Source: Mesorhizobium sp. B1-1-8
Lineage (GTDB): Bacteria > Pseudomonadota > Alphaproteobacteria > Rhizobiales > Rhizobiaceae
Length of the DNA: 64,000 nt
Reading direction: 5' to 3'
NCBI RefSeq assembly: GCF_006442795.2
Contig: NZ_CP083956.1
Span: forward strand, 5,495,501-5,559,500
Shown here: positions 4,259-33,623 of the stretch, one piece after another
Numbering within the stretch: the stretch's first letter is position 1
Layout of the letters: the number at the start of each line of letters is the position of its first letter
The notes under the pieces: generated by a model
The model's input: only the letters and a program-made list of their open reading frames with translations
The model's database searches: none
Told to the model about the DNA's origin: nothing
Made by a program: the position numbers and the translations under genes

Positions 4259-7147
4259 TTACCACACTTCGTTGCCTGACCGTTCATGAATAGCGTATGA
4301 CGCCCAGTAATATGGATGAGCAGCGTCGATAAGATCGCCTTTTATTGCCCCGCTAATTGCCGCTCTTTGGGCTTTTGCCAGGGCCAGAGCCAAATCGCCC
4401 GATTGCGCATGCTGGCAATATGCCTCAATCAACTTTTGGCCGACGGCGTCAGTCACGCGCCAGAACGACGCCAACACGGTCAAGGCACCTGCACGCAGTA
4501 GAGAATAGGGCAATCCGATCGGCGGACTGCCCGATACCGAAAACGAGTCCGCAGAATAGCACGCGGACAGTGCGATGTATCTTGGAACCCGCGGAAGCGC
4601 TTCAATGTCCTTCAATGACAAGATCACGCCTTGCCCACAATCATCTAGCACCACGAGGCCAGACGATTGCGGCTCGCCGGGATCAAAGGAACCATGGCAA
4701 GCGAAGTGGATGCGGGAGACCTTTGTCAGCCAACCGAGAATGCTGGATTTCGTGGGCTGAGGATCATCCGGAGAGTCATCGGTGAGCCTGATCACATCGC
4801 TACCAGCCTGAGCAAACCAAAACAGCGCTGCTCGACCTTCTTGGGAGACGCCTGGTAAGGGTGGAAAACTAATTGGGTTTCCACCCCTACTGGTCGCAAT
4901 ATTGACAGCCGATCTTACCGAGACCACGCACGCAGGGCCGTCCTCGGTTGGTGAGTTCTTGCTCGTGATCGTGTGGCGACTGGCAAATGTGAATGCCTCG
5001 ATTAAGTACTGACCTCCAACTCTCAAGGCACCGATTGGAAGATTGGTTAGCGGCCCATCAGTTTCGACCGAGACGCGGCCTTGGCTACCATCAAGGAGAC
5101 TAAATGTTTCCTCCATCTTCAGCGCGTCGACGATGTCCTGATTTGCCAACCGTAGGGACTCGAAAGCGCGGTCAAAATCGACCTGAATGGTTCCCGGTTC
5201 GGCAAAGCGCGCGATCGAGCTCGCTGAAGTCCACGCGCGGAGGGCGTTGTGCCATGCGTATGTCATTCCGGCCAGGTCGACTGCATCAAGAGATAGAATT
5301 CGCCACCAGACACGACTGCCCCGCCTGACAACAACAAGCGTGGTGGAGCGCAGAACGATGAAGATAACCGATTGTCCCCCGCCAAACTCCGTCGCAAACC
5401 ACTTCCTGAGAGACGACATCCATCGAGCCGGCTCTCTTGGACCTTGCGCTGTTCTCGAGCGCCTAAAGATGCGTCGGACGCGACGGCTGGCTTCGCTGTC
5501 CCTTCTGAAAAGCCGTCCTGCTCTGGTAGATAGGCCACTCGTTGCCAGGCGCGAGACCTCCACAACGTCCTGCTCCAGCTCGTCATCGTGGGGACTAATC
5601 TTGTCGATCAGATAGACCGAACGGGTGTGGATATCCATTCCCTGAGTTAGCGAGTGGATAAGACGGTCGGCCTGTTGCCTCGCTCCTTGCGCGAGGCTTT
5701 CATCGCCGCACTTAGATGCGATGCCGCTTAGGATTCGATTGCATTGCCATTCGTCCAATCTAGCCCCGAGCAATTCACACTGAGTGGCGGCAAGCTGAGC
5801 AAGCCGGTAAGCATCTTCAAATTGGCCCGCTTTGTTACACATTAGCGAGGAAAGGATGTTCATTCTTGCGATCAATATGGGCGAATCCACGGTTTGAAAT
5901 TTGGCGCGGCAAACGTCAAATGCTTCGGAAGCGGCTGCTAGATCTCCTTCATCGAGATGCATACGAATTAATGTTGCACGCTGCGCGAATTCCGAGTCGA
6001 GCTCGTAGGCAGGAACGCGAAGTGTCCACTGGGTTAGTCGCAGCGGTACCTGCTTTTCCTCATCTTCGGTTTCGGCGCGCTCCCCGTAGAGGTCAGACAA
6101 CGATTGAGTGAATTCGGCATTAAAATTCGCCGATCGGGCGACTTGTAGCGCTCGGATGAACGCGACCTCTTCGCGTACCGCCGATGTTAAGGAGCCCCAG
6201 TCAATCTTCTCTAGAAGTGCCAAGACGCTTTCGGCCCGGCTCGCTTGGTTCATAAACATGAGAACGTGTGCCGCCTGGATCAGCCAGGCAGCGATTGCCC
6301 TATTGGAGCCGACAGACCGGACCAACCCACCCACTTGTTCGAGCGAACGAACTGCAGTCGCCAGATCATCGCCCAAGATATGAAGCCGGGAAATCAGAGC
6401 CAGTCTGCGCAATTCAAGTGGGGCGAAAACAAAAGGTCTAGCGGTCGGACTAAGACACCCGAGTGATTTGGCCGTAGCGAAATCCCCTCTCTGCAAGACG
6501 ATGATGGCGTCTGCCAATTCAATCCTTTCTCGAAGGAGCAACACCGAAGCCTCCGCCGACACCACCTTTCCCAGCAAGGAGCCCGCTCGCGCGATTGTAA
6601 CTCTGGCTTGAGAGAGCAAGCCACTTGCGGCGAGCAGCAGGCCTACCGAATGATAGACTCGCGCCGCAACCTCCCGACCATCCGGTGCGTCAGGCTGCGC
6701 GGCATGCAGTATCCAAGGCTGTCGAAACTCCCAGCTTTCGAAATCTGCCGTGCCAGCCGTCGCCGCCATGCCGGTCAATTCAGGCGCAAATCGTGCTAGC
6801 GCGGCGTCCGCGCCGGCGCGGTCTCCAAGCTCTAGGGCGGAACGGGCAGAGTGAGCTGCCGCTTCGGCCTGCGAAAGGACGCGCACTCTGAAGGGTTGAT
6901 GGGAGGCATATGCTTCCGCCGTGCGGCAGAACGCTTGAGCGTCGTCATCACGATCGAGCACCATGCAGATATCAGCCGCGTCGAGCACGATCTGCAGGTC
7001 CAAACGATCGACTACCGACCCGGAAGTCAACCGTTGCACCGAGGCTTCATGCGCATCACACAGCGCAACCAGTGCACGAGCGAATTGTCGCCCCCTGATT
7101 GCCTCATTGGATCGCCAGACCGGCTCGAGGCGAGGATCAGCTGTCAC
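4259..7147 (-). CDS. TPR-CHAT protein (caspase-like cysteine protease), last gene of cassette 1
   Basis: A 962-residue protein with no signal peptide or membrane segment, so probably cytoplasmic. Residues about 1-560 are alpha-helical, Ala/Leu-rich repeat sequence resembling degenerate TPRs. A basic linker follows, and residues about 650-960 form a CHAT domain. The catalytic dyad is visible: His near 818 in HFACHG and Cys near 863 in LSACYS, with the usual LPG and HPYYWASY motifs. CHAT proteases belong to clan CD with caspases and often act as triggered effectors that cleave a neighbour's product. The start is a GTG overlapping the end of the giant protein gene by 11 bases, so it is translationally coupled in the luxI-led operon. 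A natural substrate candidate is a co-encoded protein, but that is inference. Confidence 0.88.
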   Translation of the reverse strand: MTADPRLEPVWRSNEAIRGRQFARALVALCDAHEASVQRLTSGSVVDRLDLQIVLDAADICMVLDRDDDAQAFCRTAEAYASHQPFRVRVLSQAEAAAHSARSALELGDRAGADAALARFAPELTGMAATAGTADFESWEFRQPWILHAAQPDAPDGREVAARVYHSVGLLLAASGLLSQARVTIARAGSLLGKVVSAEASVLLLRERIELADAIIVLQRGDFATAKSLGCLSPTARPFVFAPLELRRLALISRLHILGDDLATAVRSLEQVGGLVRSVGSNRAIAAWLIQAAHVLMFMNQASRAESVLALLEKIDWGSLTSAVREEVAFIRALQVARSANFNAEFTQSLSDLYGERAETEDEEKQVPLRLTQWTLRVPAYELDSEFAQRATLIRMHLDEGDLAAASEAFDVCRAKFQTVDSPILIARMNILSSLMCNKAGQFEDAYRLAQLAATQCELLGARLDEWQCNRILSGIASKCGDESLAQGARQQADRLIHSLTQGMDIHTRSVYLIDKISPHDDELEQDVVEVSRLATSGLSTRAGRLFRRDSEASRRVRRIFRRSRTAQGPREPARWMSSLRKWFATEFGGGQSVIFIVLRSTTLVVVRRGSRVWWRILSLDAVDLAGMTYAWHNALRAWTSASSIARFAEPGTIQVDFDRAFESLRLANQDIVDALKMEETFSLLDGSQGRVSVETDGPLTNLPIGALRVGGQYLIEAFTFASRHTITSKNSPTEDGPACVVSVRSAVNIATSRGGNPISFPPLPGVSQEGRAALFWFAQAGSDVIRLTDDSPDDPQPTKSSILGWLTKVSRIHFACHGSFDPGEPQSSGLVVLDDCGQGVILSLKDIEALPRVPRYIALSACYSADSFSVSGSPPIGLPYSLLRAGALTVLASFWRVTDAVGQKLIEAYCQHAQSGDLALALAKAQRAAISGAIKGDLIDAAHPYYWASYAIHERSGNEVW

Positions 7148-10100
7148 GCACGGATTTCAGACAGGAAATTGGGACAATTTGCGCGCTCTTCTCGACTGGG
7201 GCTGCGAGAGGTACGAAGCAGCCGCTAGTGACCGTGGAGGGGCTTACTATCAACAGCAAGCTCCCTTTTGTAGCAGCGAGCGCGGACAATCGTCCGGAGT
7301 CTGAATCGTCAGACCGCATACCGCCTGAATCTCCGCCATTTCCGGAAGGAGGACTATTGCATGCTGCCAAATTTGAAGCTTCCTCAGGACAGACATAGCC
7401 GGTGACAAGATGTTCCATGAAGGTGGCGTACTCGGGAGTCCACACCTTCTCCCCTCGCTCAAAGTCGGCCAATGTCGGCTTTGCAATACTACTGCGGGCC
7501 AGACCAAGACGGACGTTTGAGCTAACAATAATGTCGTCAGGCACTGCCGAAAGAACGCCGCCGGCGATCAAGGCTTCAGGATCGCGGATTTCCAACACAA
7601 CTGCGTCACGTTCGATGGTTGCGAGCACAAGAGGGTCTGACAAGTTGGCGAGCCGATATTGCGCGTCGGTGTAGATCGCGCTGGCTTTCAACAGCTCACC
7701 TGGCAGCAGCTTACGAGCCTTCACGGGTGCTGGCACATTAATCTGCACGGTCGATACATCGGCACCTGGCTCGACATGCAGACCCGTGCCTAGTCGGCGC
7801 TGACTGAGTTCTGCCAACGCGATATGATCTGACTGCAGGTTTCGCTGCCATGCTACCGCGCCCTTGTCGCGGGCAACTATGGCGGCTCGTTTCGACAATT
7901 CGGCTGCGTATTCGGACGGGCTCAATGGCCTCTTGAATAGCGCAAGCAACGGATCGGCCATTGGCCTGCCATCGCGCTGCAGACGTGTTGCCGTATCGGT
8001 TAGCGCTTCCTCGCGATTGGGGCGGAAGGCGGAGTCGAAATCGTTCTGAAGAAGCTCGGCAGTTTGGCCATCCTTGGCCGCTTCAGCCTCTGCAAGTTGC
8101 ATGCGAAGGTCTTTGCGAACACGGGCAATCGCCGCCAAGGATTTGCGAGCGTCTGGCCCCATCCCGTTCGTGAGCATGTCGGTTAGCTCGGACCGCACTT
8201 GGGCGATCGCAGCAGCGTCGAATTTTGTGTCGAGCGAGGCTTGAAGGAGCAAGGTGTCGTCGCGGCCCGCGCTCTTCAGACGCTCCAAATTGAGATCTTG
8301 AAATGCCCTAACAAGTTCGTTCAGCGCCGGCTTGCGTTTGCTGATAGCAATTACCGCTGAACCGTCGTCGGCGATAAAGTTCCCTCGAAAAGGATCCTCT
8401 GGCGAGCCAAAGGCAAGCTTGGGCGTGTCGGTCGGAGGCGGACCACCAGGCGGGCCCCGGATCATGATCGCAGCACTTCCGCTTTCGCGGGGAGTCCTGG
8501 TCACTTCGATTTCAAAAAGGTCGGCCAGCTTTTCGGAAACTTTCCCTTCCTCAACCTCGCGCGATAGAACGACGGACGGCTGTTGGAACAGATCAAGGAA
8601 GCTTGGCTTCGTATCGGCCGCCCGCATCTGCCATCCTTTAGCAATGGTTGCAGATCGCGGCGGCTGCAGCTGAAACTCGTGCCAATGGAGGCCAGCCCGG
8701 GCAAACAGTGTCTCCTTGTCGATTTGCACCACCGCATCTACCCGCGGGTCTGCAAGCAGCGTAGTCGCCCAATATTGTTGCGGCGTCCGCGATAATCCTA
8801 CCGAGAGACCTTGTGCGATCTGACGCGATAGCGGCTCAGCTTCGATCGATAGAAAATTGTCATTCGCGTTGACAGAAAGACGTGCGAGTTGTCCGTCCCC
8901 GGTCGCCGAAACTATCGACAGCGTTCCGGGGGAACCGCTCGAACTCAATTCCTGCGTGAACTGGGTGTCGCTGAGTTCAACGCCATTGCCGCGGAACAAA
9001 ACTGCTTGGTCGCTCGCAGAAATGCCACCGGAGGCGTTAATTTCGACGGCCTTGGCGGAGGAAACTACCTTTGCGCGCAACGGTGAATCGAAATTGATCG
9101 CGTACGTTTTTTGATAGCCATACTCCGGGGCAAATTTCACACTGAGCGACTCCGGGCCTTTGACCACGTCCTGCGCAGTTATCTGCCCACGCCACGCTGC
9201 GCCATGGGTGCCCAATTCTTCGATTGCCGCACGTTCGCCCAATTGTGCTGCACGAGGGAGCGACACTCCGCCCCGAAGCGAATAGGTCTGACCACTCCAA
9301 ATTTTCCCGTCATCAGGCCGACCTTCGCACCAGGTAGTGGGTGCGAACTGCCAGCCGTTGTGGATGATATGTACCGTTTCGACGGAATCCTCGGCCGGTC
9401 GTGTGAGGTGATCAAAGCAACGGAGCCAAGAAATATTCTTATTGTCGGCAACGACGTTTGCGTTCACCCATTCCGGGAACCAAAGGTTCCGCCGGACGGG
9501 TTCCTGATCCATTTCATCCGCGAGTTGCGGGGCTACAATCTGGAGATGGCCCCGAACGACGTCGAGCGCGAGAGACCATTTTGTGAGCTGGTTGAGTTGA
9601 TCGTATCTCTGTTCGAATGCCGCGATGCTAGAGAAATTGTTGTTGAAAAAATCGACCCACCTTTGATCTAGGGAGCTCGGTTGCAGCTCGCGCTCTTCAC
9701 CGGTCCCGCTATTTGAAAGAGCAAAGACCCTCGTTGCCGTTCGGCCAAATGTGACCGCCTTCTTATCGGTGTCTAAACGGAATGAATCATTTCGTAGGCC
9801 AAACCAAATCCGGGTAGCCGGAATTTCGCTGTCTGCTCTCGCCTGAACCGGGTCGGCGGTATCGAAAACCGTAGGCACCCACTCCGCAATCGCCTTTCCG
9901 TAACTGCGCGAGGCGGTGCCGTCGAAGTCCATTCCGTACAGCTTTGCGAGCAAGTCGGTATAGAAGAGTATTTGACCGACCTCTGTGCCTGCAATGCCGC
10001 CATCATATCGGGCCGTCTGAAACGATGATTCAGCGAAGATCGCGTCGTCAACGGACCGGAGCAATCCGCCGCTGCTAGCGTTGTCCGGAGATTGCACGAG

Positions 10101-11603
10101 CCCCAGCATACATCTCAGCAGTTTGGGGTTTCGCCGATCGAGAGAGTTCAGAAGCGACTGCTTGTTTGCATTCAGTCCTTTAACGAGCGCATCAATGACT
10201 TGATCTGCCACCTTCTCGGAGTCGTTCGTGGCGCCATCCTGCGCATCTGGATCCGATGCGCGCTGTAGTTCAATCAATTGAACCAGCCGACCCTTGAGAC
10301 TAGCCGTGTCACCTGCGGTGATCGCCTTAATGCTCGCGGCTAGGAGATCGAAATTGTATTCTGGGTCCAGGGAAAACCCCGGCGCGCCGCGCCGGAGCGA
10401 ACGCTCTTGTGCAGAGCCGCTGTTTTCGATTTGCTCAATGGCTTCAGTGAGGTCAAGCAGCCGTTGCTCATCAGATGATTTCGACGTCTTTTCTTCTAAT
10501 TGAGCCCTGCGCTCTACAAATGCACAACTTTTGGCGACTCCTCGCAACTTATCAATATCGTTGACTATCGATTTCTGAATCTGCGCTTTTGCCTTATTAA
10601 AACTGTTGATTATTTCAATAGCTTGGTCTCTATCGTCAGAAGCATATACCTGACTATTTACTATTTTTTTTGCCGCCTCCAAGGCGTCAGCTAAATCTTT
10701 ATTTTTCGACAACGTTTCCTTGACACGTTCTTCCGTCAATTTTTGAACTAGGGCAGTATATTTCGCTTGAGTCCGCTGCGACTCTTCATCGATTCCTTGG
10801 TAGCTCTGTAGTATCGTTGCCACGTGCTCCGGGGTTATTTGCCGAAACGCACGTGCCCGATACTTTCTACCGGTGGCCGTGAGGCGTCCTCCGTCGACGC
10901 GCAGGGAGATGAGATCATCGACTTTGCCAAGGAACCCTGCCAAATCACTTCGATTTTGAAGGCTGGACTCGACCCAGCCATAGGCGTCCGCGAAAAGCGC
11001 TTTTCCATCTATTGGTCCTATGCGTTCTAGGCTGGCGGTCCAGGCTTGCGGGACTTTTGGAGAGTTTTGGTCATTAATGCAGTAGATGATAACCTCAGCG
11101 CGCGTAGGCCTCACTGCCCGTCGAACAACAAATTCGTCCGCTGCCGCAGCGATGGCATCTTGCCGCTCAGCTTCCGTTGCGCCCAACGGGACCAACACCA
11201 CCATGGCATCGTCCGCAATGGGCGCCCAGCGAATGACCCCATTCTGAAATTCGCCAACCGAGCTTGTGTATCCAACCCGGGTGACCGGCGTCTCATAGCT
11301 ATTGCCGGCCACGTCGCTCGCGTCGGACCCGAACGAGCGTAACACGGTAAGAAGCAGCCAATCTCTGATCTGTTCGCGCGCCTCATAGGGCGTCTCCCCT
11401 AAGAAGGTTTCGCCACGAAGGGTGAGCAAAACCGGACGTCTAAAGCCGATAGGCAACGTCTCTTGGACGCCTTGGCCTGACACAGACGAGAGCGACAACG
11501 ACGCAACACTGGCAGCGGCCTCTGTCGAATTCAGAGCCCACGCATACAGCCCTCCCGCGACAAGCGCCAAGGCGGCAAAAACCGCGAGCAAGTATCTATT
11601 CAT
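7137..11603 (-). CDS. Giant membrane-anchored protein of unknown function (1488 aa)
   Basis: Residues about 4-24 form one hydrophobic helix (YLLAVFAALALVAGGLYAWAL) with few flanking charges, so the bulk should lie in the periplasm or be exported. The body is soluble: a helical, probably coiled-coil part around 270-400 (rich in Glu/Lys/Ala, e.g. VKETLSKNKDLADAL), an aromatic helical motif near 650 (WVDFFNNNFSSIAAFE), then beta-rich sequence, a Pro/Gly hinge (GPPGGPPPTD) near 1100, and a C-terminal region with four Cys. I do not recognise a catalytic motif. The ATG overlaps the preceding stop (ATGA), and its end overlaps the CHAT gene. It could be a substrate, scaffold or delivery partner of the CHAT protease. 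Confidence 0.75.
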   Translation of the reverse strand: MNRYLLAVFAALALVAGGLYAWALNSTEAAASVASLSLSSVSGQGVQETLPIGFRRPVLLTLRGETFLGETPYEAREQIRDWLLLTVLRSFGSDASDVAGNSYETPVTRVGYTSSVGEFQNGVIRWAPIADDAMVVLVPLGATEAERQDAIAAAADEFVVRRAVRPTRAEVIIYCINDQNSPKVPQAWTASLERIGPIDGKALFADAYGWVESSLQNRSDLAGFLGKVDDLISLRVDGGRLTATGRKYRARAFRQITPEHVATILQSYQGIDEESQRTQAKYTALVQKLTEERVKETLSKNKDLADALEAAKKIVNSQVYASDDRDQAIEIINSFNKAKAQIQKSIVNDIDKLRGVAKSCAFVERRAQLEEKTSKSSDEQRLLDLTEAIEQIENSGSAQERSLRRGAPGFSLDPEYNFDLLAASIKAITAGDTASLKGRLVQLIELQRASDPDAQDGATNDSEKVADQVIDALVKGLNANKQSLLNSLDRRNPKLLRCMLGLVQSPDNASSGGLLRSVDDAIFAESSFQTARYDGGIAGTEVGQILFYTDLLAKLYGMDFDGTASRSYGKAIAEWVPTVFDTADPVQARADSEIPATRIWFGLRNDSFRLDTDKKAVTFGRTATRVFALSNSGTGEERELQPSSLDQRWVDFFNNNFSSIAAFEQRYDQLNQLTKWSLALDVVRGHLQIVAPQLADEMDQEPVRRNLWFPEWVNANVVADNKNISWLRCFDHLTRPAEDSVETVHIIHNGWQFAPTTWCEGRPDDGKIWSGQTYSLRGGVSLPRAAQLGERAAIEELGTHGAAWRGQITAQDVVKGPESLSVKFAPEYGYQKTYAINFDSPLRAKVVSSAKAVEINASGGISASDQAVLFRGNGVELSDTQFTQELSSSGSPGTLSIVSATGDGQLARLSVNANDNFLSIEAEPLSRQIAQGLSVGLSRTPQQYWATTLLADPRVDAVVQIDKETLFARAGLHWHEFQLQPPRSATIAKGWQMRAADTKPSFLDLFQQPSVVLSREVEEGKVSEKLADLFEIEVTRTPRESGSAAIMIRGPPGGPPPTDTPKLAFGSPEDPFRGNFIADDGSAVIAISKRKPALNELVRAFQDLNLERLKSAGRDDTLLLQASLDTKFDAAAIAQVRSELTDMLTNGMGPDARKSLAAIARVRKDLRMQLAEAEAAKDGQTAELLQNDFDSAFRPNREEALTDTATRLQRDGRPMADPLLALFKRPLSPSEYAAELSKRAAIVARDKGAVAWQRNLQSDHIALAELSQRRLGTGLHVEPGADVSTVQINVPAPVKARKLLPGELLKASAIYTDAQYRLANLSDPLVLATIERDAVVLEIRDPEALIAGGVLSAVPDDIIVSSNVRLGLARSSIAKPTLADFERGEKVWTPEYATFMEHLVTGYVCPEEASNLAACNSPPSGNGGDSGGMRSDDSDSGRLSALAATKGSLLLIVSPSTVTSGCFVPLAAPVEKSAQIVPISCLKSVRDS

Positions 11604-11962
11604 CTGATCGCCCCCGCCTGCGTCTCTAGAATCTTCTGAGCGGCCGTGAACCGTTCGAGTTCCGCTTCGACATCCTTGGTCGGGGTATCGGGATTTCTTC
11701 GAATCCAGCGGAAGAGCGACGACCCGTAGAGCGCGAGCACGGTGCGATCTAGGTCAACGGAAGGATTTCTTGGTCGCGTGGCAAGGAACGCTTCGGCTCC
11801 TCGCATGGCCGAAATATCGAAACCCGCCTGCCAATCTTCGTCGATCTGCGCCGCCAATCTATGGCGGGTTTCAAGCATCGACCGCTGTTGATACAGCAGG
11901 TAACCGCCGTGGCCGATCGCAGCCAGCAGAAGCAAAATGATTAGCCCATAAGCTATTTTCAC
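11600..11962 (-). CDS. Small N-terminally membrane-anchored protein
   Basis: A 120-residue protein. Residues 4-24 form a hydrophobic helix (AYGLIILLLLAAIGHGGYLLY), and the remainder is a charged helical domain with no Cys. It sits 23 bases after the preceding gene, and its stop overlaps the ATG of the giant protein, so the two are translationally coupled. It has the form of a bitopic inner-membrane accessory protein. No family recognised. Confidence 0.7.
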   Translation of the reverse strand: MKIAYGLIILLLLAAIGHGGYLLYQQRSMLETRHRLAAQIDEDWQAGFDISAMRGAEAFLATRPRNPSVDLDRTVLALYGSSLFRWIRRNPDTPTKDVEAELERFTAAQKILETQAGAIR

Positions 11963-13800: not shown

Positions 13801-13822
13801 CACCTGTCCGATCGGACAGTTG
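13801..13822 (-). promoter_or_regulatory. lux box 1
   Basis: Perfect palindrome CTGTCCGATCGGACAG at 13804-13819, extending with one mismatch to 22 bp. It lies between the luxR stop and luxI start, about 60 bases before the luxI ATG, where a LuxR-AHL complex would activate luxI. The same 16-mer occurs before the other two luxI copies. Confidence 0.88.
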
Positions 13823-20727: not shown

Positions 20728-21120
20728 GCTCACCTCTCTCGACATATTCGTCCGACGCTTCACGCAATTATGTGATCGTCATTCTCAGCAAGCGCGCCGT
20801 GTATCCAAACGACATACGCCTGCTACTGCGGCCAGTCGGTAGCTCTCAAGACCAAGTTCAGAGCGGTCAGATCGTCGCGAAAATCTCCATCAGCACAATT
20901 CAAGCCTGAGCGAGAAGCGCTGAGGCGATTGAGGCTATCCGTACCGAGATCGCGCCTAATCTGCCATGCGGGTCATGCATTTGGCTATCCTCCTACCGCC
21001 CCACTATTTGAACGACGGCCATGCGTTAAGCCAAGAAGCCAATCGCTTTGCCCGAGGTCTCAAAAGAGAGGCGGTAGCCCGATTGCTCCAACGACCTCAA
21101 ATGGTTCAGTTGCCCTCCGG
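20728..21120. other. Intergenic stretch, nothing recognised
   Basis: Lies between the phosphoesterase start and the last gene of the cassette 2 operon. No gene, terminator or repeat could be supported on either strand. Confidence 0.4.
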
Positions 21121-22359: not shown

Positions 22360-22378
22360 CTTATCGATCTTCCCCTCT

Positions 22379-24451: not shown

Positions 24452-24480
24452 GTTGCTTCCCCCGATTTGCTCCGACGTGA

Positions 24481-25237: not shown

Positions 25238-25259
25238 CACCTGTCCGATCGGACAGTTG
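25238..25259 (-). promoter_or_regulatory. lux box 2
   Basis: Core CTGTCCGATCGGACAG at 25241-25256, identical to boxes 1 and 3, between the luxR2 stop and luxI2. Confidence 0.88.
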
Positions 25260-25264
25260 ACAGT

Positions 25265-25987
25265 CTATGGATGAATCAGGCGCCTGCGCACAGCCTCGAT
25301 CACCGCTTGCGTCGTCGTGCCGACGCCGAACGCTTCGCGGGCTCGGGTGGTATGCCATTTGACCGTGCGTTCGGTCAGGCCAAGGATCTGGGATGTTTCG
25401 GATGAGGTCTTGCCGGCAGCAGCCCACAACAGCACCTCTTTTTCACGATCCGTTAGGACGCCGTCTGCTTCGCCGTCGACGTCCGAAAATGCCTGGATCG
25501 ACATACCAGCGTAGACCGCCATCGTTACCAGTTGCACCTGTTGACGTGGCGACAGACTGATGGCCTTTTGCGAAGAGGCGAAGGAGAGGACAGACTGCCA
25601 ATGATGGACGCTGAGCATTGGCACGGCGAAGCCGCTCCAAATGCCAAACTCCGTCGCCTCACCCGCAACGCGTCGGGAGGCCTGTGTGTCAGACCATTTT
25701 GCCGGCACTTCGGCCCAGAGGAACGGCTTCAGGGTTTTTGCCGAGTAGATGCAAACACCGTCGACCGCGGCATGCTCTGCTTCGATGTAACGTTCGAGCC
25801 AGCCCTCAGGCCAGCCGTTCAGTTCGACCATCGGTGCCAACTTCTGACCGCCAAGCGGAACGCCGCTCAAGATGAGATGCTCAAAGCCGAGGTTCCTCAC
25901 GGTTTCGAGAAGGTCGTCCAGTAGCGGCTCGGTTGCCTTGTGCTTCCTGCAACGCTCGACAAAGTCGAACACGTCCGAATCTATCAT
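25265..25987 (-). CDS. LuxR-family AHL-responsive transcription factor, cassette 2
   Basis: A 240-residue regulator nearly the same as that at 13829-14551: autoinducer-binding domain with GWLERYIEAEHAAVDGV and KPFLW, then a GerE HTH (LTDREKEVLLWAAAGKTS, ERTVKWH). The start at 25987 (MIDSDVFDF) is set by homology; a longer in-frame start exists at 26068. It ends just before lux box 2. Because the ligand pocket and recognition helix match copy 1, the two receptors probably share a signal and operator. Confidence 0.94.
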   Translation of the reverse strand: MIDSDVFDFVERCRKHKATEPLLDDLLETVRNLGFEHLILSGVPLGGQKLAPMVELNGWPEGWLERYIEAEHAAVDGVCIYSAKTLKPFLWAEVPAKWSDTQASRRVAGEATEFGIWSGFAVPMLSVHHWQSVLSFASSQKAISLSPRQQVQLVTMAVYAGMSIQAFSDVDGEADGVLTDREKEVLLWAAAGKTSSETSQILGLTERTVKWHTTRAREAFGVGTTTQAVIEAVRRRLIHP

Positions 25988-26400
25988 GCCAGAGACCCCG
26001 CCTCTCTGCCGCGATGCAAGACGCAGGTAAATTAGCATCTCGGAATGTCTTAGTAGAAAAGCGGGCATTTGCCAATGATTAAAGGGGGGTTAAATGGCGT
26101 TCCTTGATGAAAGGTTTGACGTCATTGGTACACACGATCAAGACGTTGTACGCGTACATTATTCAATATACATACCGATCCGGATGTCATGGCACGGCAG
26201 CATGGCATTGGCCTAGCCTCTCTTTGGATACGCTTAAATTTTCTTGAAGGAGTTACGAAGTATATTATTTCATTTTTACATTTAGGCTTAATTGATAGTG
26301 CAAATTTCAATTACTTTATTGTTGACCTACACCACCGATTCCTATTGTCAACTTAACCGTTCCAACCTCTCGTTTTCGCTGGCAGCGGGAGGTCATCCGA
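25988..26400. other. AT-rich intergenic region between luxR2 and the mobilisation gene
   Basis: Distinctly AT-rich from about 26190 to 26345, unlike its neighbours. Short inverted motifs such as GTACGCGTAC occur near 26147. It could hold the luxR2 promoter or, being next to a replication-relaxation gene, a transfer-origin-like site, but no known consensus is recognised. A 62-codon minus frame inside it is not supported. Confidence 0.4.
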
Positions 26401-27417
26401 TCACTCAGGCTCACGGAGACTGAGGTCCCCCTTGCCTGCCCTTCTCCAACGGCCGGCAACCAAGTCAAGTATCGGGCTTGGCAGTGCGCCTTTTGTTGCG
26501 AACCTAGATTCACATCTAAACAGCACATAATTGTTCCCCTTGCCCTCTGTGACACGCATGACAAGGTCGATCATGTTCTGCAGCTGACGCTCGGTGGTGG
26601 TCAGAAAGAGCACGACCATCCCCTCTTCTATGCCATAATGCTGCTTGTACGTTTGGCCACCAACGAAGTGCCGATATTGCAAGAAGCTTCTCAGGAACGA
26701 TTTCCGCTCGAAAGATCCATGCGAAACCAGCTCGGTGGAGCGATCGACCTCGAGCAGGAAGTAGAGTTTCTTGTCGCCGTAGCGGATTCCGAAAAGTTGA
26801 TCGGGAATGAGCTTCAAGGAATGGCTTCGGCCTCCGTGAGTAAACGGCGCGACCGCCGAGAGCTGCCTATCGCCGATCGCCTGGTGTCGAGGAATGAAGC
26901 CGAGCGAAGGATTCGCCAATATCGCCAGTTCTATCGACGCCGTCACGCAGGAGACCATCAATTGATGGTCCCACCAGCCGGCGTGCGTGGTTGAAACGAG
27001 GCGGCCGGCTTCCGCGAGCGCTTTTTTGGAGGCGGCGGTAAGGGCATATACGTTAGTGTGGTTGCGGGGAACGTAGCCACCAGGGAGCTGCGGATACTGA
27101 GCCGCCGGCTTGTCAAGATAGCGGCCGCCATGGGCGGTGTTTTGCTCATGGCCGAGATCGGTCAGCCGGTCTCTGGCTCGTCCAATACTCTTATGCCCGA
27201 AGTACCGAGAATACTCGATGAGATAGGGAGATGGCAGAGGTCCGTGCCAGTTGAGGCGCTCGAACAAAAAGAGATCACGCGGCATTGCCGTAATGAATTT
27301 ACCCGTTGAGACCGGCCGAACCGGCATCCGACGCTGGAGACTATCCCATGCTTTTGGCGAGGCAATCCGCATGGCGCCGACATAGGCCAAATCCCCTGCC
27401 GGCGAAACGTGCGGCAT
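26401..27417 (-). CDS. Replication-relaxation family protein (intact copy)
   Basis: A 338-residue protein of the replication-relaxation type, associated with mobile-element replication or mobilisation. Visible features are an N-terminal winged-helix-like region (GPLPSPYLIEYSRYFG, IGRARDRLTDL) and a conserved nuclease-like centre LKLIPDQLFGIRYG then YFLLEVDRSTE near residues 205-230. The start is uncertain: ATG 27417 and ATG 27369 both lack a clear ribosome site. It is encoded 71 bases after the coupling-protein-like ATPase, so probably the third gene of a mobilisation operon. Two decayed relatives lie at 15358-16220 and 38390-38770. Confidence 0.8.
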   Translation of the reverse strand: MPHVSPAGDLAYVGAMRIASPKAWDSLQRRMPVRPVSTGKFITAMPRDLFLFERLNWHGPLPSPYLIEYSRYFGHKSIGRARDRLTDLGHEQNTAHGGRYLDKPAAQYPQLPGGYVPRNHTNVYALTAASKKALAEAGRLVSTTHAGWWDHQLMVSCVTASIELAILANPSLGFIPRHQAIGDRQLSAVAPFTHGGRSHSLKLIPDQLFGIRYGDKKLYFLLEVDRSTELVSHGSFERKSFLRSFLQYRHFVGGQTYKQHYGIEEGMVVLFLTTTERQLQNMIDLVMRVTEGKGNNYVLFRCESRFATKGALPSPILDLVAGRWRRAGKGDLSLREPE

Positions 27418-27488: not shown

Positions 27489-29645
27489 TTAGCGCGGGGT
27501 GATGTCGCCCTCATCCAGGTCTTTTGGTTTCGGGCGAATGTCTCCGGTTTCCTGGAGACGATCTGATGAGGGTGGTCCGGCCGGCGACCGCTCGTCTCTC
27601 AATCTCAAAGGCTGGGCGTAGGTAGCGCGCATCCTGTTGCGCACCTCGCGCGCCTCGTCTTGCGACATCGTCTCCAGTTTCTCCATGAAGCCGAATGGTA
27701 CCGTGAGCGATACCGCGGTCGGCGTGACGTTACGAACAAAGGCGGCAAACGAGCCCTGGCGCTGCGCGTGCACAAAATCGTGGCCTGTGCGCATTTCCTT
27801 GGCCAGGCGTCCGGCGTCGGCATGGCTGGCTCCGCCGACAAACTTGATTGAGGTGTTGGCGGCGATGCTATCCGCGGTCTTCGTTGACAGATCGCCGAGC
27901 ATCTGATGCGCTACGATCATGCCAATCCGGCGCTTGCGCGCCTGCTGGAAGATGTTGGTGATGAAGCTGTCGGCGTTCGCGGCATAGTCGCCGAACTCGT
28001 CGATATAGACGAAGCAGGGCAGCGCATATTCGTCGCGCTCCTGAGCGGCAAGCGCGATCATGGCGATGAAGAAACGGCCAAAGATCTCCGTGCCGCTCTG
28101 CTGCAACAGGCTCTTGTCGGCATTTATCAGGATAACCTTGCCTGCCGCCATCTCAGTGAACAGGTCGAACTTGCTGGTCGCCGACGACATCATGCGTTCG
28201 AAAGCACTATTTTCGAGGAGACCCCATAGACGGCGCAGAACTTGCCGCCGTGTCTCCCCATACTGCTTTGCATCGGAGTACTCGGTTTCGAAGAACAGTC
28301 GCGCCGAACCGGACAGGCCCATAAGGTGTTCGCGGAATTTTTCTTCGCCGTTGGGCTCCAACAGTTCCCGGAACGTGTGGATCGTTGCGTCCGGAATGAT
28401 CAGCATGGCGCGAATTAAAAACGAGAACAGTGTGCCCTGCTTGGCTGTCATTTCGGCGCTCATCAGGCTACCCAGTGCGAACGAAAGCAATTCCACCAAC
28501 GCGTTCTGCAGCCGCTCCCGGTCGATCGGCGCGTAGGTTTTGAGACGCTCCTTGCCGACTGAGAACAAACCGAGCGTTATCGGAAATTCGATGTCGGTGG
28601 GATCGATCACGACTAGCCTGTCGCTGAGCGGTTGGCCGCGGGCGAACAGTTTCAGTCGGCTAATTTTGCGGATCAGGTCGCCTTGGCTGTCAATCACGAC
28701 GATCGAGGCTTCGCCGTGGGCCACCTTGACTAGGTCCATGGTGATGAAGTGCTGCAGGGTCTGGGTCTTGCCGTGGCCACTGCCGGCGACGATGTGATGA
28801 TGTTCGAAACGAACCCGTTCCGGGATCGAAAAGGGAATTCTGGCGCCTAGAATGTCGAGAAGGGGGGTATCCTTGAGATAGGCGAAGATCGGATTGTTGC
28901 CCTTGTAGGCCGTCGGCAGCACCGGCTCGCCGAACAGCTTTCCACCTTTGGCTACGCCAGACACCTCCAATACATTCTGGTCAATCTGCTCACGAAGGCC
29001 GGCCAAGAGGTTGCGGCTGATCACCTCGTCTTTGAAGAAAGAGAGGATCATGCCTTCGATCAGAGGCCTACAGTCCATGACATCCGACAATCTCGTGCTC
29101 AATCGGGTTGGATCGTCGGCATCGACCTCGGGCGTATGCAGGGCAACGGCACGCCATGCCGTCAGCAACGTCTTGTGAAGAAGGTCCGGAGCGGTGCGAT
29201 CGCAGACCTTTGCGCCTTGCTCGCTTAGGTAGTCCAAATACCGCCATCCCGCAGGGCAGTCGCACACGGGGGGCGGCTCCGCAATGGGCTCAGAAAATCC
29301 CTCGGCCTCATAAAGCCTGGCTGACGCAAGTGCGATTTCATCCGCCAGGTTCGTTGGCAGACCCGACGGAAGACGCTCAAAAATGCCGACGGCAAACTCC
29401 TGCGGCGAAGGAAAATCCGGCCGTCGACGCAGGATTTCATCGTAGCGATGCTGCGCGTTTGCCTTTGCCTTCCGTTCCCGCGCGGCATCCGTGTTTGAAA
29501 ATGCCAAGCCTACCTTGTATGCGATCCACATCAGGCTGATCGGCACTACGATGAACAACATCAGCGGCACGACGGCCGCCATCAACATTGTTACGATGGC
29601 GGCCCCGGCCAGCGCAGTACCGACGTCGGGCCCTTTGTCGCTCAC
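27489..29645 (-). CDS. Type IV coupling-protein-like conjugation ATPase (TraG/VirD4/TraD type)
   Basis: About 718 residues. Two N-terminal membrane helices (LAGAAIVTMLMAAVVPLML, IVVPISLMWIAYKV) precede a RecA-like motor domain with Walker A GSGHGKTQT and Walker B CFVYIDEFGDY, then QQARKRRIGMIVAHQ and an SIAANTSIKFVGG motif typical of coupling proteins. It should pump or recruit relaxase-bound DNA to a secretion channel. GTG 29645 follows the upstream stop by about ten bases; 29705 would overlap it. No mating-pair-formation genes are visible, so transfer would depend on another element. Confidence 0.85.
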   Translation of the reverse strand: MSDKGPDVGTALAGAAIVTMLMAAVVPLMLFIVVPISLMWIAYKVGLAFSNTDAARERKAKANAQHRYDEILRRRPDFPSPQEFAVGIFERLPSGLPTNLADEIALASARLYEAEGFSEPIAEPPPVCDCPAGWRYLDYLSEQGAKVCDRTAPDLLHKTLLTAWRAVALHTPEVDADDPTRLSTRLSDVMDCRPLIEGMILSFFKDEVISRNLLAGLREQIDQNVLEVSGVAKGGKLFGEPVLPTAYKGNNPIFAYLKDTPLLDILGARIPFSIPERVRFEHHHIVAGSGHGKTQTLQHFITMDLVKVAHGEASIVVIDSQGDLIRKISRLKLFARGQPLSDRLVVIDPTDIEFPITLGLFSVGKERLKTYAPIDRERLQNALVELLSFALGSLMSAEMTAKQGTLFSFLIRAMLIIPDATIHTFRELLEPNGEEKFREHLMGLSGSARLFFETEYSDAKQYGETRRQVLRRLWGLLENSAFERMMSSATSKFDLFTEMAAGKVILINADKSLLQQSGTEIFGRFFIAMIALAAQERDEYALPCFVYIDEFGDYAANADSFITNIFQQARKRRIGMIVAHQMLGDLSTKTADSIAANTSIKFVGGASHADAGRLAKEMRTGHDFVHAQRQGSFAAFVRNVTPTAVSLTVPFGFMEKLETMSQDEAREVRNRMRATYAQPLRLRDERSPAGPPSSDRLQETGDIRPKPKDLDEGDITPR

Positions 29646-29655
29646 GACACTTTTT

Positions 29656-30060
29656 TCAGATATCGAACACCTGCTCTCGACCGTCAAAGGTTGCTGCGGT
29701 TGCAAGGAACCCCTTCAGGTTCTGGCACGCCGTCATGACTGCTTCCTCAGCCGCCATAATCTCGGAGAGATCTTTCCCCTCGATCAGCTGCCCCCTTGTC
29801 AAGCTGTCGACCGTGATAACGAGCGAGAGCTTCGTCAGTGCCAACTCTTTCAGAGTGCGGAACAGACCACCGCCCGAACTTGCGGCGGCAGCGTGCGATT
29901 TAGCTGCCTCACTCGCGTAGACGACTTCCTTCCCGAGGCCGTATTTACGAACGTATTCCGCTTCCTCATGCCGCAATTCAGCGCGGGCATCGAGAACAAA
30001 GACGGCGACCTTTGACAGCAAACCCGACGTTTTCTGTGAGCGCCTCAGACGCAACTGCAT
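29656..30060 (-). CDS. Hypothetical 134-aa protein, first gene of the mobilisation operon
   Basis: The N-terminus is basic (MQLRLRRSQKTSG) and a charged helical body follows, with an Ala/Ser/Gly-rich stretch (HAAAASSGGGLF) in the middle. No signal peptide. It directly precedes the coupling-protein gene on the same strand, so a mobilisation accessory role is likely from context only. Confidence 0.6.
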   Translation of the reverse strand: MQLRLRRSQKTSGLLSKVAVFVLDARAELRHEEAEYVRKYGLGKEVVYASEAAKSHAAAASSGGGLFRTLKELALTKLSLVITVDSLTRGQLIEGKDLSEIMAAEEAVMTACQNLKGFLATAATFDGREQVFDI

Positions 30061-30590: not shown

Positions 30591-31217
30591 CTATGAAGTT
30601 TCCGAAGCCCAGAACCCTCTCAGTTTTGCTTCATCTCCGTTGAACATGTCGCGGTCAGAACGACCAACGCCACGAACAGTATGGGGATCCGGGCCAAACG
30701 CCCCATCGGTGTACTGCCACATGGTCCAACTTGGCCAATTAGGTGGAACGACAGGAGTCGGACCATACTGAGCCAACCAGAACCAACATTTCGCTAAAAT
30801 GGGATCAGTCTTGGTGCCGAGCAGTTGCTTGATATAGTGCCCGGAATATAAACCGGGAAAGTGACCCGTCTTGTCGTGGACGTGAGTGACAAAGGCTCTC
30901 GCCTCTTCCAGGCTCATGCTTGGACCCGTTGGATTTGGCTCGAGATCGAGGACAAGAAGGGCTTTGCGATCTCCAACTACGCCGAGGAAATTTTCTGCTT
31001 GTCTGACTCCATCGCTGCCGGTGCCAAAGTGGTAGGCGCCCCATAGCAGCTGTGCAGTCTCCGCACGCCCGCGATTCCTGGCATAGGTCGGATCGACGCC
31101 CGTCTGGCCTTGGGTAGCTTTCTGGATGACTCCAACGATTCCGTCAGTTTTGGCGGTGGCCAAATTGACGTTGCCGTTGTGATGCGAAATGTCGATTACC
31201 CCATTGAAATTAGGCAT
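30591..31217 (-). CDS. GH25 muramidase (lysozyme), last gene of cassette 3
   Basis: A 208-residue N-acetylmuramidase. GH25 hallmarks: VIDISHHNG with Asp 9 and the LVLDLEPN motif with the catalytic Asp 91 and Glu 93, followed by GLYSGHYI and WQYTDG. No signal peptide, so export would need lysis or a dedicated route. ATG 31217 has GAGGGAG upstream. It follows the L,D-transpeptidase-like gene by 49 bases, so two cell-wall enzymes end this luxI-led operon. Confidence 0.92.
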   Translation of the reverse strand: MPNFNGVIDISHHNGNVNLATAKTDGIVGVIQKATQGQTGVDPTYARNRGRAETAQLLWGAYHFGTGSDGVRQAENFLGVVGDRKALLVLDLEPNPTGPSMSLEEARAFVTHVHDKTGHFPGLYSGHYIKQLLGTKTDPILAKCWFWLAQYGPTPVVPPNWPSWTMWQYTDGAFGPDPHTVRGVGRSDRDMFNGDEAKLRGFWASETS

Positions 31218-31266
31218 TGCCCGCTCCCTCTTGCTTAATGCACTGCTCGCGTGAGTACCGATACGT

Positions 31267-31809
31267 TCAGGGCTCCCCGTCGATCGCAACCCATGCGTTG
31301 TCGATGGGTTGTCCGTTGTGATGGGGGAACGCATTTCCTGCGAATGCTCGGAGGTCATCGATCGCCGCGATGATGCGGTCGCGGCTGTCCACGAATGGTA
31401 TGTCGGTGTTGGCGCTCGCCAAAGCGCTCGTCAGGTTGATGCAACCGATACTCGCCAGAAATCCGTGGCCAGGATGTACGAGTATTTCGCGACGGTTGCC
31501 CGTCTGCCGCAATTCCAGACCTGGTTTCGGAGTCTGGTCACAATCGTTGCTGACCAAATAGCCTATGGTCAAATAGTGTGAGCCAGCCTGCGTGGCCAAA
31601 GGATATCTACCCGCCTCGATCCTTCGGCCATTTCCCGCCACGTTATTGTCGCCGGGTCCTTTCGCTTCAACCGAAGTACCTTTGAGTTTCGCCTGGGCAG
31701 TTCCATTGTGATAAATCTGATAGGTGCCGATGGTGCGAATTCTGCCCCGTCTTTGCTGAACAATTTGTCGGACTATGTGCAGTTCCCATCCTAGTCCCGC
31801 GATCGGCAT
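31267..31809 (-). CDS. L,D-transpeptidase-like (YkuD/DUF5675-like) protein, cassette 3
   Basis: A 180-residue protein. The central beta-rich region carries the YkuD-type active-site order ILVHPGHGFLASIGCINL, with His 112 and Cys 123, and an upstream IEAGRYPLATQAG. Such proteins cross-link or modify peptidoglycan, or belong to the related DUF5675 family of unknown activity. No signal peptide. ATG 31809 is preceded by GGAAGGA at eight bases. Gap to the upstream gene is 112 bases, larger than elsewhere in the operon. Confidence 0.75.
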   Translation of the reverse strand: MPIAGLGWELHIVRQIVQQRRGRIRTIGTYQIYHNGTAQAKLKGTSVEAKGPGDNNVAGNGRRIEAGRYPLATQAGSHYLTIGYLVSNDCDQTPKPGLELRQTGNRREILVHPGHGFLASIGCINLTSALASANTDIPFVDSRDRIIAAIDDLRAFAGNAFPHHNGQPIDNAWVAIDGEP

Positions 31810-31921
31810 GTGCTTGTCCTTCCCATCGATCCCTGGCGAGTTGGTCAATACGATTGACGTTGGAAACGATCCGCTCGTGACCTCTCTCCATTGCGGCGAG
31901 GCCTTCGTCTTGCACCAAGTG

Positions 31922-32281
31922 CTAAAGTTCGGGCAGAGTCAGAAGACCCTTGGTTGCAGTCGAGAGCGCTTTGTTGATAGCTCCCCAAAGTACTTTGACG
32001 GCGGCATTCCACACCTTCTCCACCGTGAGAATGGTCAGTGCTGCTACGTCACTCGCTAGGCTTCTAACGGAGTCGGCCAACTGATCGGCAAACCAGCCCC
32101 TAAGATCATCCTTGAGGGTGCCAGCGATACTGCTTTCGGCGATCCAGGCAGCCTGTTGCGCCATCATTTTAGATTGCTGTGTGACCAATGTGGATATTTT
32201 GGTCCAGCCTTGTTTCGCTTGTTTTTGAATCGCATCAACCAAGGCGTTAACTGTCGCGTTTACATCGATGATAGCGGCCAA
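31922..32281 (-). CDS. Small helical protein, cassette 3
   Basis: A 119-residue Ala-rich helical protein with amphipathic stretches (LVDAIQKQAKQGWTKI) and a moderately hydrophobic segment (VAALTILTVEKVWNAAVKVLW) that may associate with membranes. The TTG start has a clear AGGAGA six bases upstream. It lies nine bases after the lipoprotein gene. Size and composition resemble holin-like or spacer proteins, but no family is recognised. Confidence 0.62.
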   Translation of the reverse strand: MAAIIDVNATVNALVDAIQKQAKQGWTKISTLVTQQSKMMAQQAAWIAESSIAGTLKDDLRGWFADQLADSVRSLASDVAALTILTVEKVWNAAVKVLWGAINKALSTATKGLLTLPEL

Positions 32282-32290
32282 GACAATCTC

Positions 32291-32845
32291 CTATCGCTGC
32301 AAGGCAGACTCGAATACCAAGATGCGGCTCATTTCTATTTCGTATTGGTATTTGAACCCGCCTATGCCATTTGACCCCGTGACGAAGTTGCCCTTCAACT
32401 CTCCGCTTTGGTGAATGTCACGCATCTTGGTCAACACTTTGATCACCTGATCCAGATGATGGGGCGTTGGGTTCACGCAGTTGGTCGGATCATTCCCGCA
32501 AACGCTATTCAAGTGGGCGATCTTGAGAACCCTTTGGCTGGGAGCCGGAACATCGCGCGATGCCGTTTCCATACGCGCGGCCGAGAATCCCCCAATGAGT
32601 TGGTCATATGTGGCCTTGTATTTCGCAAAGTCCCCCGCCGTGCCGCCTTGAGAAAGTGAGGCCATGAGCGTTTCAGTTTTCACATTAAGGTCAGAAATAC
32701 TGGTGAAGGTCGCCTGGTTGTAGGCTGGTGAAAGCTGGATCGCGCAGCTGGAAAGGACTAGGGCGATAAGAATTACGAGAGACCGAATAGCAGATGCTAC
32801 GGGCGGTGTACGGTCTGGCCGGGATACCGAACGCGCTTGATACAT
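32291..32845 (-). CDS. Predicted lipoprotein, first cargo gene of cassette 3
   Basis: About 184 residues. A basic N-terminus and hydrophobic helix (SLVILIALVLSSC) end in a lipobox with Cys near residue 34, so the mature protein should be lipid-anchored in the envelope. The rest is helical (LNVKTETLMASLSQGG, YKATYDQLIGGF) with two further Cys (VCGNDPTNC). ATG 32845 is chosen; a TTG at 32860 is in frame. It lies 44 bases after luxI3. Possibly an envelope partner, or an immunity protein, for the downstream wall enzymes (inference). Confidence 0.75.
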   Translation of the reverse strand: MYQARSVSRPDRTPPVASAIRSLVILIALVLSSCAIQLSPAYNQATFTSISDLNVKTETLMASLSQGGTAGDFAKYKATYDQLIGGFSAARMETASRDVPAPSQRVLKIAHLNSVCGNDPTNCVNPTPHHLDQVIKVLTKMRDIHQSGELKGNFVTGSNGIGGFKYQYEIEMSRILVFESALQR

Positions 32846-32889
32846 CACATCAACATCCAATTTGGATCGGACCGGCCAATGGGGAACTG

Positions 32890-33546
32890 CTAGGCGACTC
32901 TGCTTAGCTTCTCGACAGGTCCGGTGAACGGCACCTGCCTTCCCCGCCGCACCAGCAATGAATGCTCAATCTTCAGTATCTTCCTGACACTCAACATCGC
33001 CGCCTCGTTCACATCGATATAGGCGACGATGTACCATTCGCCGTTTTCTTCCCTAGCCATGCCGAGCGGCTCGGCATGCCATTTCAGCGCGCCGTGGTGG
33101 GGCATGAAATAGGTCTCCTGGACGCCGCCAACCGCGCTCAGGCCCTCGTCGAGGGCGTATTCCATCACGGCGCAGCACAGTTGCGTCAGCGTGCCTCGAA
33201 GCCCGGTCGCGCGCTTGTCGGGAACGACGAAAGTGCGGGTCCATTCGGCCCAATCGGGGCGCCTCGGAACGCCTGTCCGCTCGCACATGTGAGGAAAAAC
33301 CTCCGAGACCATGTGTGGCTCGCTCGTTGGGATTAGTCGAGCCGAGGTCACGACACGGCCCTCTTCAATACCGAGCAGATAAGTCGCTGCATCGGTATCG
33401 AACTGGTCTAGCTCGCGACCGTCGGGGCTCGGAGGGCGCCACTGTTTCTGGTGCACAAAGAAGTCGTGACGACGGCGCAAAAACTCGTCGAATTCGTTCT
33501 CGTAGAGAAGCTTGTTGAGCGCATTGACGACATGGACCGAAATCAT
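32890..33546 (-). CDS. Acyl-homoserine-lactone synthase (LuxI family), cassette 3, without its luxR
   Basis: A 218-residue LuxI with the conserved Arg/Phe/Trp, acidic and SARLIPT residues. Matches copies 1 and 2 up to LLVRRGRQVPF and then has its own short tail (TGPVEKLSRVA). It starts with ATG after GGGGG and leads the operon 33546 to 30591. No luxR follows the lux box: homology stops just beyond it, and an IS256 remnant and IS630 lie further on. Induction would then depend on a LuxR from cassette 1 or 2. Confidence 0.95.
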   Translation of the reverse strand: MISVHVVNALNKLLYENEFDEFLRRRHDFFVHQKQWRPPSPDGRELDQFDTDAATYLLGIEEGRVVTSARLIPTSEPHMVSEVFPHMCERTGVPRRPDWAEWTRTFVVPDKRATGLRGTLTQLCCAVMEYALDEGLSAVGGVQETYFMPHHGALKWHAEPLGMAREENGEWYIVAYIDVNEAAMLSVRKILKIEHSLLVRRGRQVPFTGPVEKLSRVA

Positions 33547-33623
33547 CGCGCAACCCCCAATGTTTTCCCAGCAGGATGATTGCAGTGATGCTAAAATACG
33601 TCACCTGTCCGATCGGACAGTTG
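32926..33623 (-). repeat. Quorum-sensing cassette repeat, copy 3 (lux box-luxI only)
   Basis: Partial direct repeat of the luxI and lux box part of copies 1 and 2. The leader between lux box and luxI is closest to copy 1. Confidence 0.8.
33602..33623 (-). promoter_or_regulatory. lux box 3
   Basis: Core CTGTCCGATCGGACAG at 33605-33620, identical to the other two. Similarity to the other cassettes ends a few bases to its right. Confidence 0.88.

Follow-up and report, generated by a model that had tools for sequence, protein, structure and literature searches.

Why should one genome carry three near-identical luxI genes close together, each behind the same palindrome and each followed by different genes? 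The question is raised by a 64,000-nucleotide stretch of Mesorhizobium sp. B1-1-8 (NZ_CP083956.1, positions 5,495,501 to 5,559,500 of the forward strand), referred to here as the window. Three units can be recognised in it. Each consists of a 16-bp palindrome, CTGTCCGATCGGACAG (the box), a luxI gene predicted to encode an acyl-homoserine lactone (AHL) synthase, and a run of further genes, the cargo; two also contain a luxR gene. We read such units as cassettes, each an expression head under quorum control to which exchangeable effector genes are attached, and put the probability of this reading at roughly 60%.

Three box-luxI units in one window

The original prediction, made from the sequence of the window, was that an identical palindrome precedes three luxI genes. 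A scan of the window locates exact copies of the box at 13804-13819, 25241-25256 and 33605-33620. There are no other exact copies in the 6.19-Mb genome, where a search at up to 2 mismatches adds two sites with 2 mismatches and nothing else. At up to 3 mismatches the window contains 5 matches, compared to a mean of 0.54 in shuffled sequences, and 5 matches were reached in 1 of 100 shuffles. The two non-exact matches lie within luxI3 and at 60548. The distance from the end of the box to luxI is about 60 bp in all three units.

The luxR, luxI and cargo genes described here for the window are all on the minus strand. The products of luxI1 (13053-13742, 229 amino acids), luxI2 (24481-25182, with a TTG start) and luxI3 (32890-33546) all score above the Autoind_synth cut-off, with 73.3, 70.3 and 73.4 bits, respectively. 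Over the aligned part, LuxI2 is 91% and LuxI3 86% identical to LuxI1; a search of the strain's own genome with LuxI1 scores LuxI2 at 90%. In units 1 and 2 the adjoining LuxR contains the AHL-binding and GerE domains. LuxR1 (13829-14551, 240 amino acids; Autoind_bind 75.6 bits, GerE 42.9 bits) and LuxR2 (25265-26068; homologous to luxR1 from codon 28 on) are 91% identical, with almost the same DNA-binding ends. We looked for a luxR gene beside luxI3 and none is present. An IS630 transposase gene (34230-35333) is located upstream of luxI3, and the homology of unit 3 to unit 1 starts about 82 bp ahead of luxI. Units 1 and 2 are homologous from about 820 bp ahead of luxI to luxI nucleotide 620, which identifies them as copies of one head.

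Downstream genes lie on the luxI strand in all three units, so that each luxI heads a same-strand run as predicted, and comparison finds the cargo genes unrelated. The earlier observation of three box-luxI units with unrelated cargo is confirmed. Its further suggestion, that one signal could fire all three, agrees with the common box, the near-identical LuxI proteins and the two near-identical LuxR proteins.

A genus-wide head and its junction with the cargo

The three window units are members of a genus-wide family with a conserved luxR-box-luxI head. A 27-bp extended box, searched at up to 3 mismatches with strand pairs counted as one site, is present in 33 of 146 Mesorhizobium genomes including that of B1-1-8, and a LuxI at least 85% identical occurs in 32 of the 146, in 38 copies (not counting a 58-residue fragment in genome G340). 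Named carriers include M. carmichaelinearum, M. helmanticense, M. metallidurans, M. qingshengii, M. plurifarium, M. huakuii and M. ciceri bv. biserrulae WSM1271. Plasmids carry the head as well: M. huakuii 583 p_2, with genes for an S8 peptidase and a caspase behind luxRI, and 7653R pMHb. Every extended-box site adjoins luxI or a luxI fragment, luxR, or cargo of a luxRI locus. The luxR case is G396, which has the box and part of luxR, with no close luxI on its short contig. The cargo case is G301, G304 and G334, where boxes with 1 and 2 mismatches in 27 stand about 140-150 bp ahead of a tyrosinase-relative run and of a small signal-bearing protein, with no luxI between box and cargo; these three loci are near-identical and count as one event.

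To locate the end of the conserved head, we compared the DNA of 34 copies drawn from 42 luxI rows. The eight rows left out are L050 (71% identity), L165 (68% identity), a broken copy (the second luxI at L148), and five loci whose cargo resembles that of a different row (L151, L155, L159, L160 and L163). Among the copies kept, L132/L134 and L140/L149 still have common cargo. Mean pairwise identity is 0.81-0.93 over luxI nucleotides 0-570, falls to 0.73 at 570-600 and 0.58 at 600-630, and from 630 on is at the chance level of 0.25-0.28. In 435 of 561 pairs the alignment ends in bins 603-629, often at luxI nucleotide 620, at least nine codons ahead of the stop; in the few pairs with common cargo it continues past the junction. 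LuxI is 216-238 amino acids long across the copies and the homology stops at about nucleotide 620, so the last 9-31 codons or so of luxI belong to each cargo. The median dN/dS of LuxI is 0.049 (525 of 561 pairs), indicating strong purifying selection.

The junction is sharpest between tandem copies within one genome. Those of G347 have 798 bp in common with one mismatch, and those of G303 have 1191 bp with four mismatches (identity 99.7-99.9% in both genomes). Both alignments stop at +620, with unrelated cargo beyond, and their left ends differ. The fixed right end may be a recombination point, or merely the end of the needed protein. The structure itself, a head joined near the luxI 3' end to exchangeable cargo, is well supported.

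Distant luxI loci (35-53% identity) have palindromes of other sequence. In 11 of the 16 distant loci L051-L066, a crude list of open reading frames (ORFs) places the first ORF after luxI on the opposite strand, and we therefore keep the family claim to Mesorhizobium. The B1-1-8 genome itself has further luxI genes at G000:C2:491438-492031 (37% identical to LuxI1) and G000:C1:5642372-5642881 (31%), each with an adjoining luxR relative. A 67%-identical luxRI pair is found on Mesorhizobium plasmids (L046, L047); at L046, a cluster annotated as a phazolicin-family bacteriocin lies about 6-9 kb upstream of luxR.

Cargo, proposed working and rival explanations

The composition of the cargo was assessed by a Pfam scan of 50 of 134 cargo genes, 48 of which encode at least 220 amino acids, hand-picked to represent different clusters; L136 contributes two of them, the window cargo was scanned separately, and L046, L047 and L166 lie outside the cargo table. 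The control consisted of 20 genes drawn at random, each from a different cluster, out of 164 genes that these loci contain beyond their cargo runs; a few of these control genes lie between luxI and the tRNA. Cargo was searched at E 0.01 and the control at 1e-5, and counts were compared at 1e-5 for both, with the assignment to hydrolases and redox proteins being our own sorting of Pfam families. Hydrolase families are found in 14 of the 50 cargo genes (four S8, three trypsin-like, astacin, Rv2525c-like, PG_binding_1, amidase, patatin, GDSL and metallophosphatase), and redox families in eight (tyrosinase, LodA, an FAD protein, ferritin-like, cytochrome c, GMC, gluconate dehydrogenase subunit 3 and multicopper oxidase). 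The control contains one phosphatase (Ppx-GppA) and one monooxygenase. The difference, 22/50 against 2/20, has p 0.005 (Fisher); for hydrolases alone (14/50 against 1/20) p is 0.03. At curated family cut-offs, under which the GDSL and one trypsin-like match fall, the combined cargo count is 20/50 (p 0.012). The cargo thus likely leans to hydrolases and oxidases.

No cargo cluster is common to all cassettes. Several recur in new company, namely S8 (c22), GDSL (c23), lipoprotein (c24), trypsin/S8 (c170-172) and the small-protein clusters c19, c25 and c43, so the cargo seems to be mixed and matched. The enzymes are often accompanied by lipoproteins or membrane proteins; crude scans flag putative lipoproteins in several cassettes and export signals on several cargo proteins. 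Since the head recurs and the cargo changes by locus, the search originally suggested, for luxI followed by CHAT, DUF900 or GH25 genes, would miss the family.

We infer AHL control, co-transcription, cargo function and the mode of exchange from sequence, as follows. LuxI would make an AHL; at high cell density, LuxR with bound AHL would bind the box and switch on luxI together with the cargo genes that follow. Since all copies have almost the same boxes, LuxR and LuxI, the cassettes of one cell, including the luxR-less unit 3, should fire together. AHL control of luxI and cargo is supported by three features: the tight same-strand layout, in which the first downstream gene is on the luxI strand in 32 of 34 copies according to the gene caller (median gap 87) and within 203 bp in 24 of these 32; the box and nearby promoter blocks, which are almost invariant across the 34 copies; and the boxes ahead of luxI-less cargo. 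The protease, cell-wall or lipid hydrolase and oxidase cargo would serve as density-gated effectors, directed against competitors or used for shared digestion. The nearest solved synthases to LuxI are 5w8a ("Autoinducer synthase"), which we take to be BjaI, and 6wn0, a 4-coumaroyl-homoserine lactone synthase. These hint at a coenzyme A-type substrate, which is our guess.

New cargo would arrive at tRNA genes, within integrative elements. All three window units lie inside one such element of 72.5 kb, which extends from a tRNA-Phe gene (L196 7462-7537) to a perfect 48-bp repeat of the tRNA-Phe 3' end at 40443-40490 (plus strand); the left copy of the repeat is at G000:C1:5463492-5463539. At one end it encodes a tyrosine integrase (39144-40310, minus strand; Phage_integrase, Arm-DNA-bind_3); an integrase next to directly repeated tRNA 3' ends is the mark of an integrative element at a tRNA site. 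Neither this element nor the lack of a luxR in unit 3 figured in the original observation. A tRNA scan of the window found none, since the repeat copy on the right is no more than a piece of a tRNA. GC content is 50-59% between 2 and 40 kb of the window, compared to 58-64% in the remaining window, and is less even (53-65%) where the element continues to the left of the window. At tRNA-Phe, the loci L132, L135 and L145 have both flanks about 93-95% identical and different genes between luxI and the tRNA. Pairs with the same flanks and different cargo are also found at tRNA-Gln (L153/L154, L150/L154, L143/L139 and L144/L147), and partial tRNA-Gln copies follow the cargo or precede luxR at L136, L143, L152 and L156. 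In such comparisons one of the common flanks is the 3' end of the tRNA-Gln or tRNA-Phe. A wider proposal, in which a genus-wide platform of head and fixed luxI-3'-end junction swaps effectors at tRNA genes and the arsenals of different species share a signal and could cross-trigger, is tentative, and we place it somewhat below even odds.

tRNA genes are insertion hot spots. The head could be a self-contained luxRI circuit at such a spot, its neighbours being random arrivals with their own promoters, and several observations weigh against quorum-gated cargo, in part in favour of this alternative. Clear cargo beside luxI is missing in 6 of 34 copies: the gap behind luxI is 1068 bp at L138, 600 bp at L141 and 606 bp at L045, and an opposite-strand ORF comes first at L139 and L143. 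The sixth, L136, was rejected as a cargo locus, its integrase and neighbours sitting behind a 17-nt tRNA-Gln copy and being read as another element. At L046, L047 and L166, the loci of 67% identity, luxI is followed by an opposite-strand IS110 gene. Promoter and terminator scans are uninformative, near the shuffled level. One cargo pair, of 165 and 426 amino acids, is present in genomes G302 and G387 without head or box, so cargo can live under other control. Of the 32 loci scanned with ARAGORN, 14 contain a tRNA, and luxI is present in 13 of these 14; 17 of 30 luxI loci have no tRNA inside the stretch scanned. The cargo lean is subject to similar reservations. The control is small, hydrolases alone give 12/50 against 1/20 (p 0.06) at curated cut-offs, and Nramp, periplasmic-binding and nucleoside phosphorylase families also occur as cargo. 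For many cargo enzymes the crude scan predicts no signal peptide, which leaves their export unexplained. Against random arrivals speak a first gene on the luxI strand in nearly all copies and mostly close behind it, the lean to hydrolases and oxidases, and a box directly ahead of cargo genes. We consider this alternative unlikely.

The location of all three units in a tRNA-Phe element with an integrase also fits a system of the TraR-TraI style, in which the luxRI copies control transfer of their own mobile element and the cargo is passenger DNA. Mobility-type genes, Replic_Relax (26401-27417; 27.3 bits against a cut-off of 25.3) and a TraG-like gene (27489-29705; TrwB/TraG domains below cut-off), are located between cassettes 2 and 3, both on the minus strand. 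According to PMC8627217, TraR-TraI controls Mesorhizobium symbiosis elements, and in strain R7A such an element (ICEMlSymR7A) inserts at tRNA-Phe and responds to quorum sensing by becoming active. PMC10470506 covers the R1-I1 circuit of M. japonicum and the four luxI genes of MAFF 303099. The likeness to our system includes the genus, luxRI homologs, a tRNA-Phe element, and duplications and losses of quorum-sensing genes. The LuxI studied here is, however, unlike those of MAFF 303099: the best match in G315, which we read as that strain because its plasmid coordinates agree, is 34%. The only exact boxes of the genome precede luxI, and a box stands ahead of luxI-less cargo in the three near-identical loci. 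At up to 3 mismatches in the window and 2 in the genome, weaker boxes not having been sought, no box lies ahead of the integrase gene, the TraG-like gene or Replic_Relax. Control of transfer is a distinctly improbable account of the cassettes. Equally improbable is a role of the cargo in self-lysis or suicide defence at high density, for which the CHAT and caspase genes, the GH25 and other cell-wall enzymes without signal peptide in the crude scan, and the restriction- and SIR2-type genes that the element also carries could speak, but 9 of 10 window proteins have no PADLOC match at E 0.01 (the caspase has a weak one, 0.0017), several cargo proteins carry apparent export signals, and tyrosinase, multicopper oxidase and GMC oxidoreductase fit suicide poorly. 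For the quorum-gated effector cargo that we prefer, the mix of apparently secreted proteases, oxidases and cell-wall enzymes favours attack or shared digestion over killing of the producer.

Cargo genes of the window and relation to known systems

In cassette 1, luxI1 is followed by a 363-amino acid ORF without a Pfam family (11986-13077), for which a later start (356 amino acids) would overlap luxI1 by 4 bp, a 120-amino acid protein (11600-11962) and a 1488-amino acid protein (7137-11603). The latter two have an N-terminal hydrophobic segment, and a second segment is flagged close to the C-terminus of the large protein, for which a Pfam scan returns no family above cut-off. Among 7992 candidates scored, it has 9 relatives at E ≤ 0.001, one 93% identical (Mesorhizobium sp.) and the other eight 25-35%; it is present in 2 of the 146 Mesorhizobium genomes, B1-1-8 included, the other being a weak match. 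The run ends with a 962-amino acid protein (4259-7147) that had been predicted to be a TPR-CHAT protease. The CHAT part stands (123.4 bits), with both FACHG and LSACYS visible, presumably the catalytic His and Cys motifs; Pfam finds no TPR part. Upstream of luxR1, a broken Replic_Relax relative is spread over two ORFs (15358-16205, minus strand; 59% and 69% identity).

Cassette 2 was expected to combine a hydrolase with membrane proteins, and does so. It comprises a 256-amino acid membrane protein with hydrophobic segments (23771-24541), whose ORF comes first and overlaps luxI2 by 61 bp, a DUF900 alpha/beta hydrolase (22923-23765; 43 bits against a cut-off of 20.5), a 165-amino acid membrane protein (22379-22876) and a 426-amino acid protein with a signal-peptide-like start (21121-22401). 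The 426-amino acid protein occurs in 3 of the 146 genomes, B1-1-8 included. Relatives of the 165-/426-amino acid pair are found at L202 10422-12202 and L203 9524-11754, neither with luxRI or box; at L203 the gene ahead of the pair encodes a 485-amino acid protein. A phosphoesterase gene (19918-20763, 138 bits) perhaps also belongs to cassette 2. It is set off by a 357-bp gap that contains a called 45-amino acid opposite-strand ORF, and has a 74% relative within the run behind another luxI (L146).

Cassette 3 encodes a 189-amino acid putative lipoprotein (32291-32860, crude lipobox scan), a 119-amino acid protein (31922-32281), a DUF5675-like protein (31267-31848) and the predicted GH25 lysozyme-like enzyme (30591-31358), which is borne out by a 107-bit match and shows no signal peptide in the crude scan. 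The DUF5675-like protein had been described as L,D-transpeptidase-like. Its S-I-G-C-I motif, which we take to resemble that of L,D-transpeptidases, is visible; the DUF5675 match itself (20.3 bits) is under the cut-off of 26.7. A PDB sequence search returned no match for either this protein or the CHAT protein. Among viral contigs, one stretch matched a pattern, and a relative was not confirmed.

Two further gene groups are located on the 72.5-kb element. An operon-like run at 35403-37819 encodes a 127-amino acid protein, a Peptidase_C14 caspase-family protein and a 281-amino acid protein with a signal-like start. No box is found there at up to 3 mismatches, and the run is possibly a cassette whose head was lost. 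In the left part of the element (L196 9774-15358), GmrSD N-terminal, SIR2-like, DEAD/ResIII helicase and HATPase genes stand in a row, an arrangement that resembles a defence cluster carried by this island.

Other loci contain cargo of unusual kinds. Small proteins with a W-P-F-P-W motif near the C-terminus are encoded at L158 6565-6978, L145 13377-13796, L142 6286-6543 and L135 4578-5171. Since two of the four loci have a multicopper oxidase or tyrosinase gene within the same run, the small proteins could be substrates or peptides of the oxidases. The first cargo protein at L152 (4256-4702, 148 amino acids) has a cysteine-rich tail and is perhaps a peptide precursor. At L045, the run starting 606 bp behind luxI contains aminotransferase, transketolase and radical SAM genes.

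The cassettes share with canonical LuxR-LuxI circuits the AHL synthase domain and a palindromic box at the luxI promoter that is kept in relatives; units 1 and 2 of the window, though not unit 3, also have the luxR-box-luxI order and the receptor domains. Unlike in those circuits, the head is repeated within one genome, and the cargo differs from copy to copy. The combination of a conserved head with exchangeable downstream cargo is also seen in integron cassettes and other swap platforms. Here, exchange seems tied instead to tRNA-site elements and to homology of the head; the junction letters were inspected, and integron parts were not searched for. Polymorphic toxin and conflict systems with CHAT or caspase effectors resemble the cassettes in that proteases, lipases and cell-wall enzymes occupy loci of variable content, but we found no delivery or immunity module that the cassettes have in common, and PADLOC is nearly empty. 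In PMC5872303, closely related LuxR proteins are linked to different metabolite gene clusters, much as near-kin LuxR proteins are tied to different genes here. Those are metabolite clusters, whereas the present cargo contains many hydrolases and oxidases, joined near one point of luxI, and no metabolite pathway genes were recognised among the window cargo. In line with the original remark that no described family of AHL-induced cassettes with such cargo was known, searches of an open-licence PMC library turned up no account of cassettes of this kind, with subscription papers and preprints outside that search.

If the reading is correct, quorum sensing would act in Mesorhizobium as a reusable control unit common to several species, behind which effectors are exchanged. 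It would offer a testable case of why competitors keep a common signal and yet change their weapons. The head and its sharp junction would provide a search handle for many unknown enzymes, and the family would constitute a natural set of modular promoters and receptors in plant-associated bacteria.

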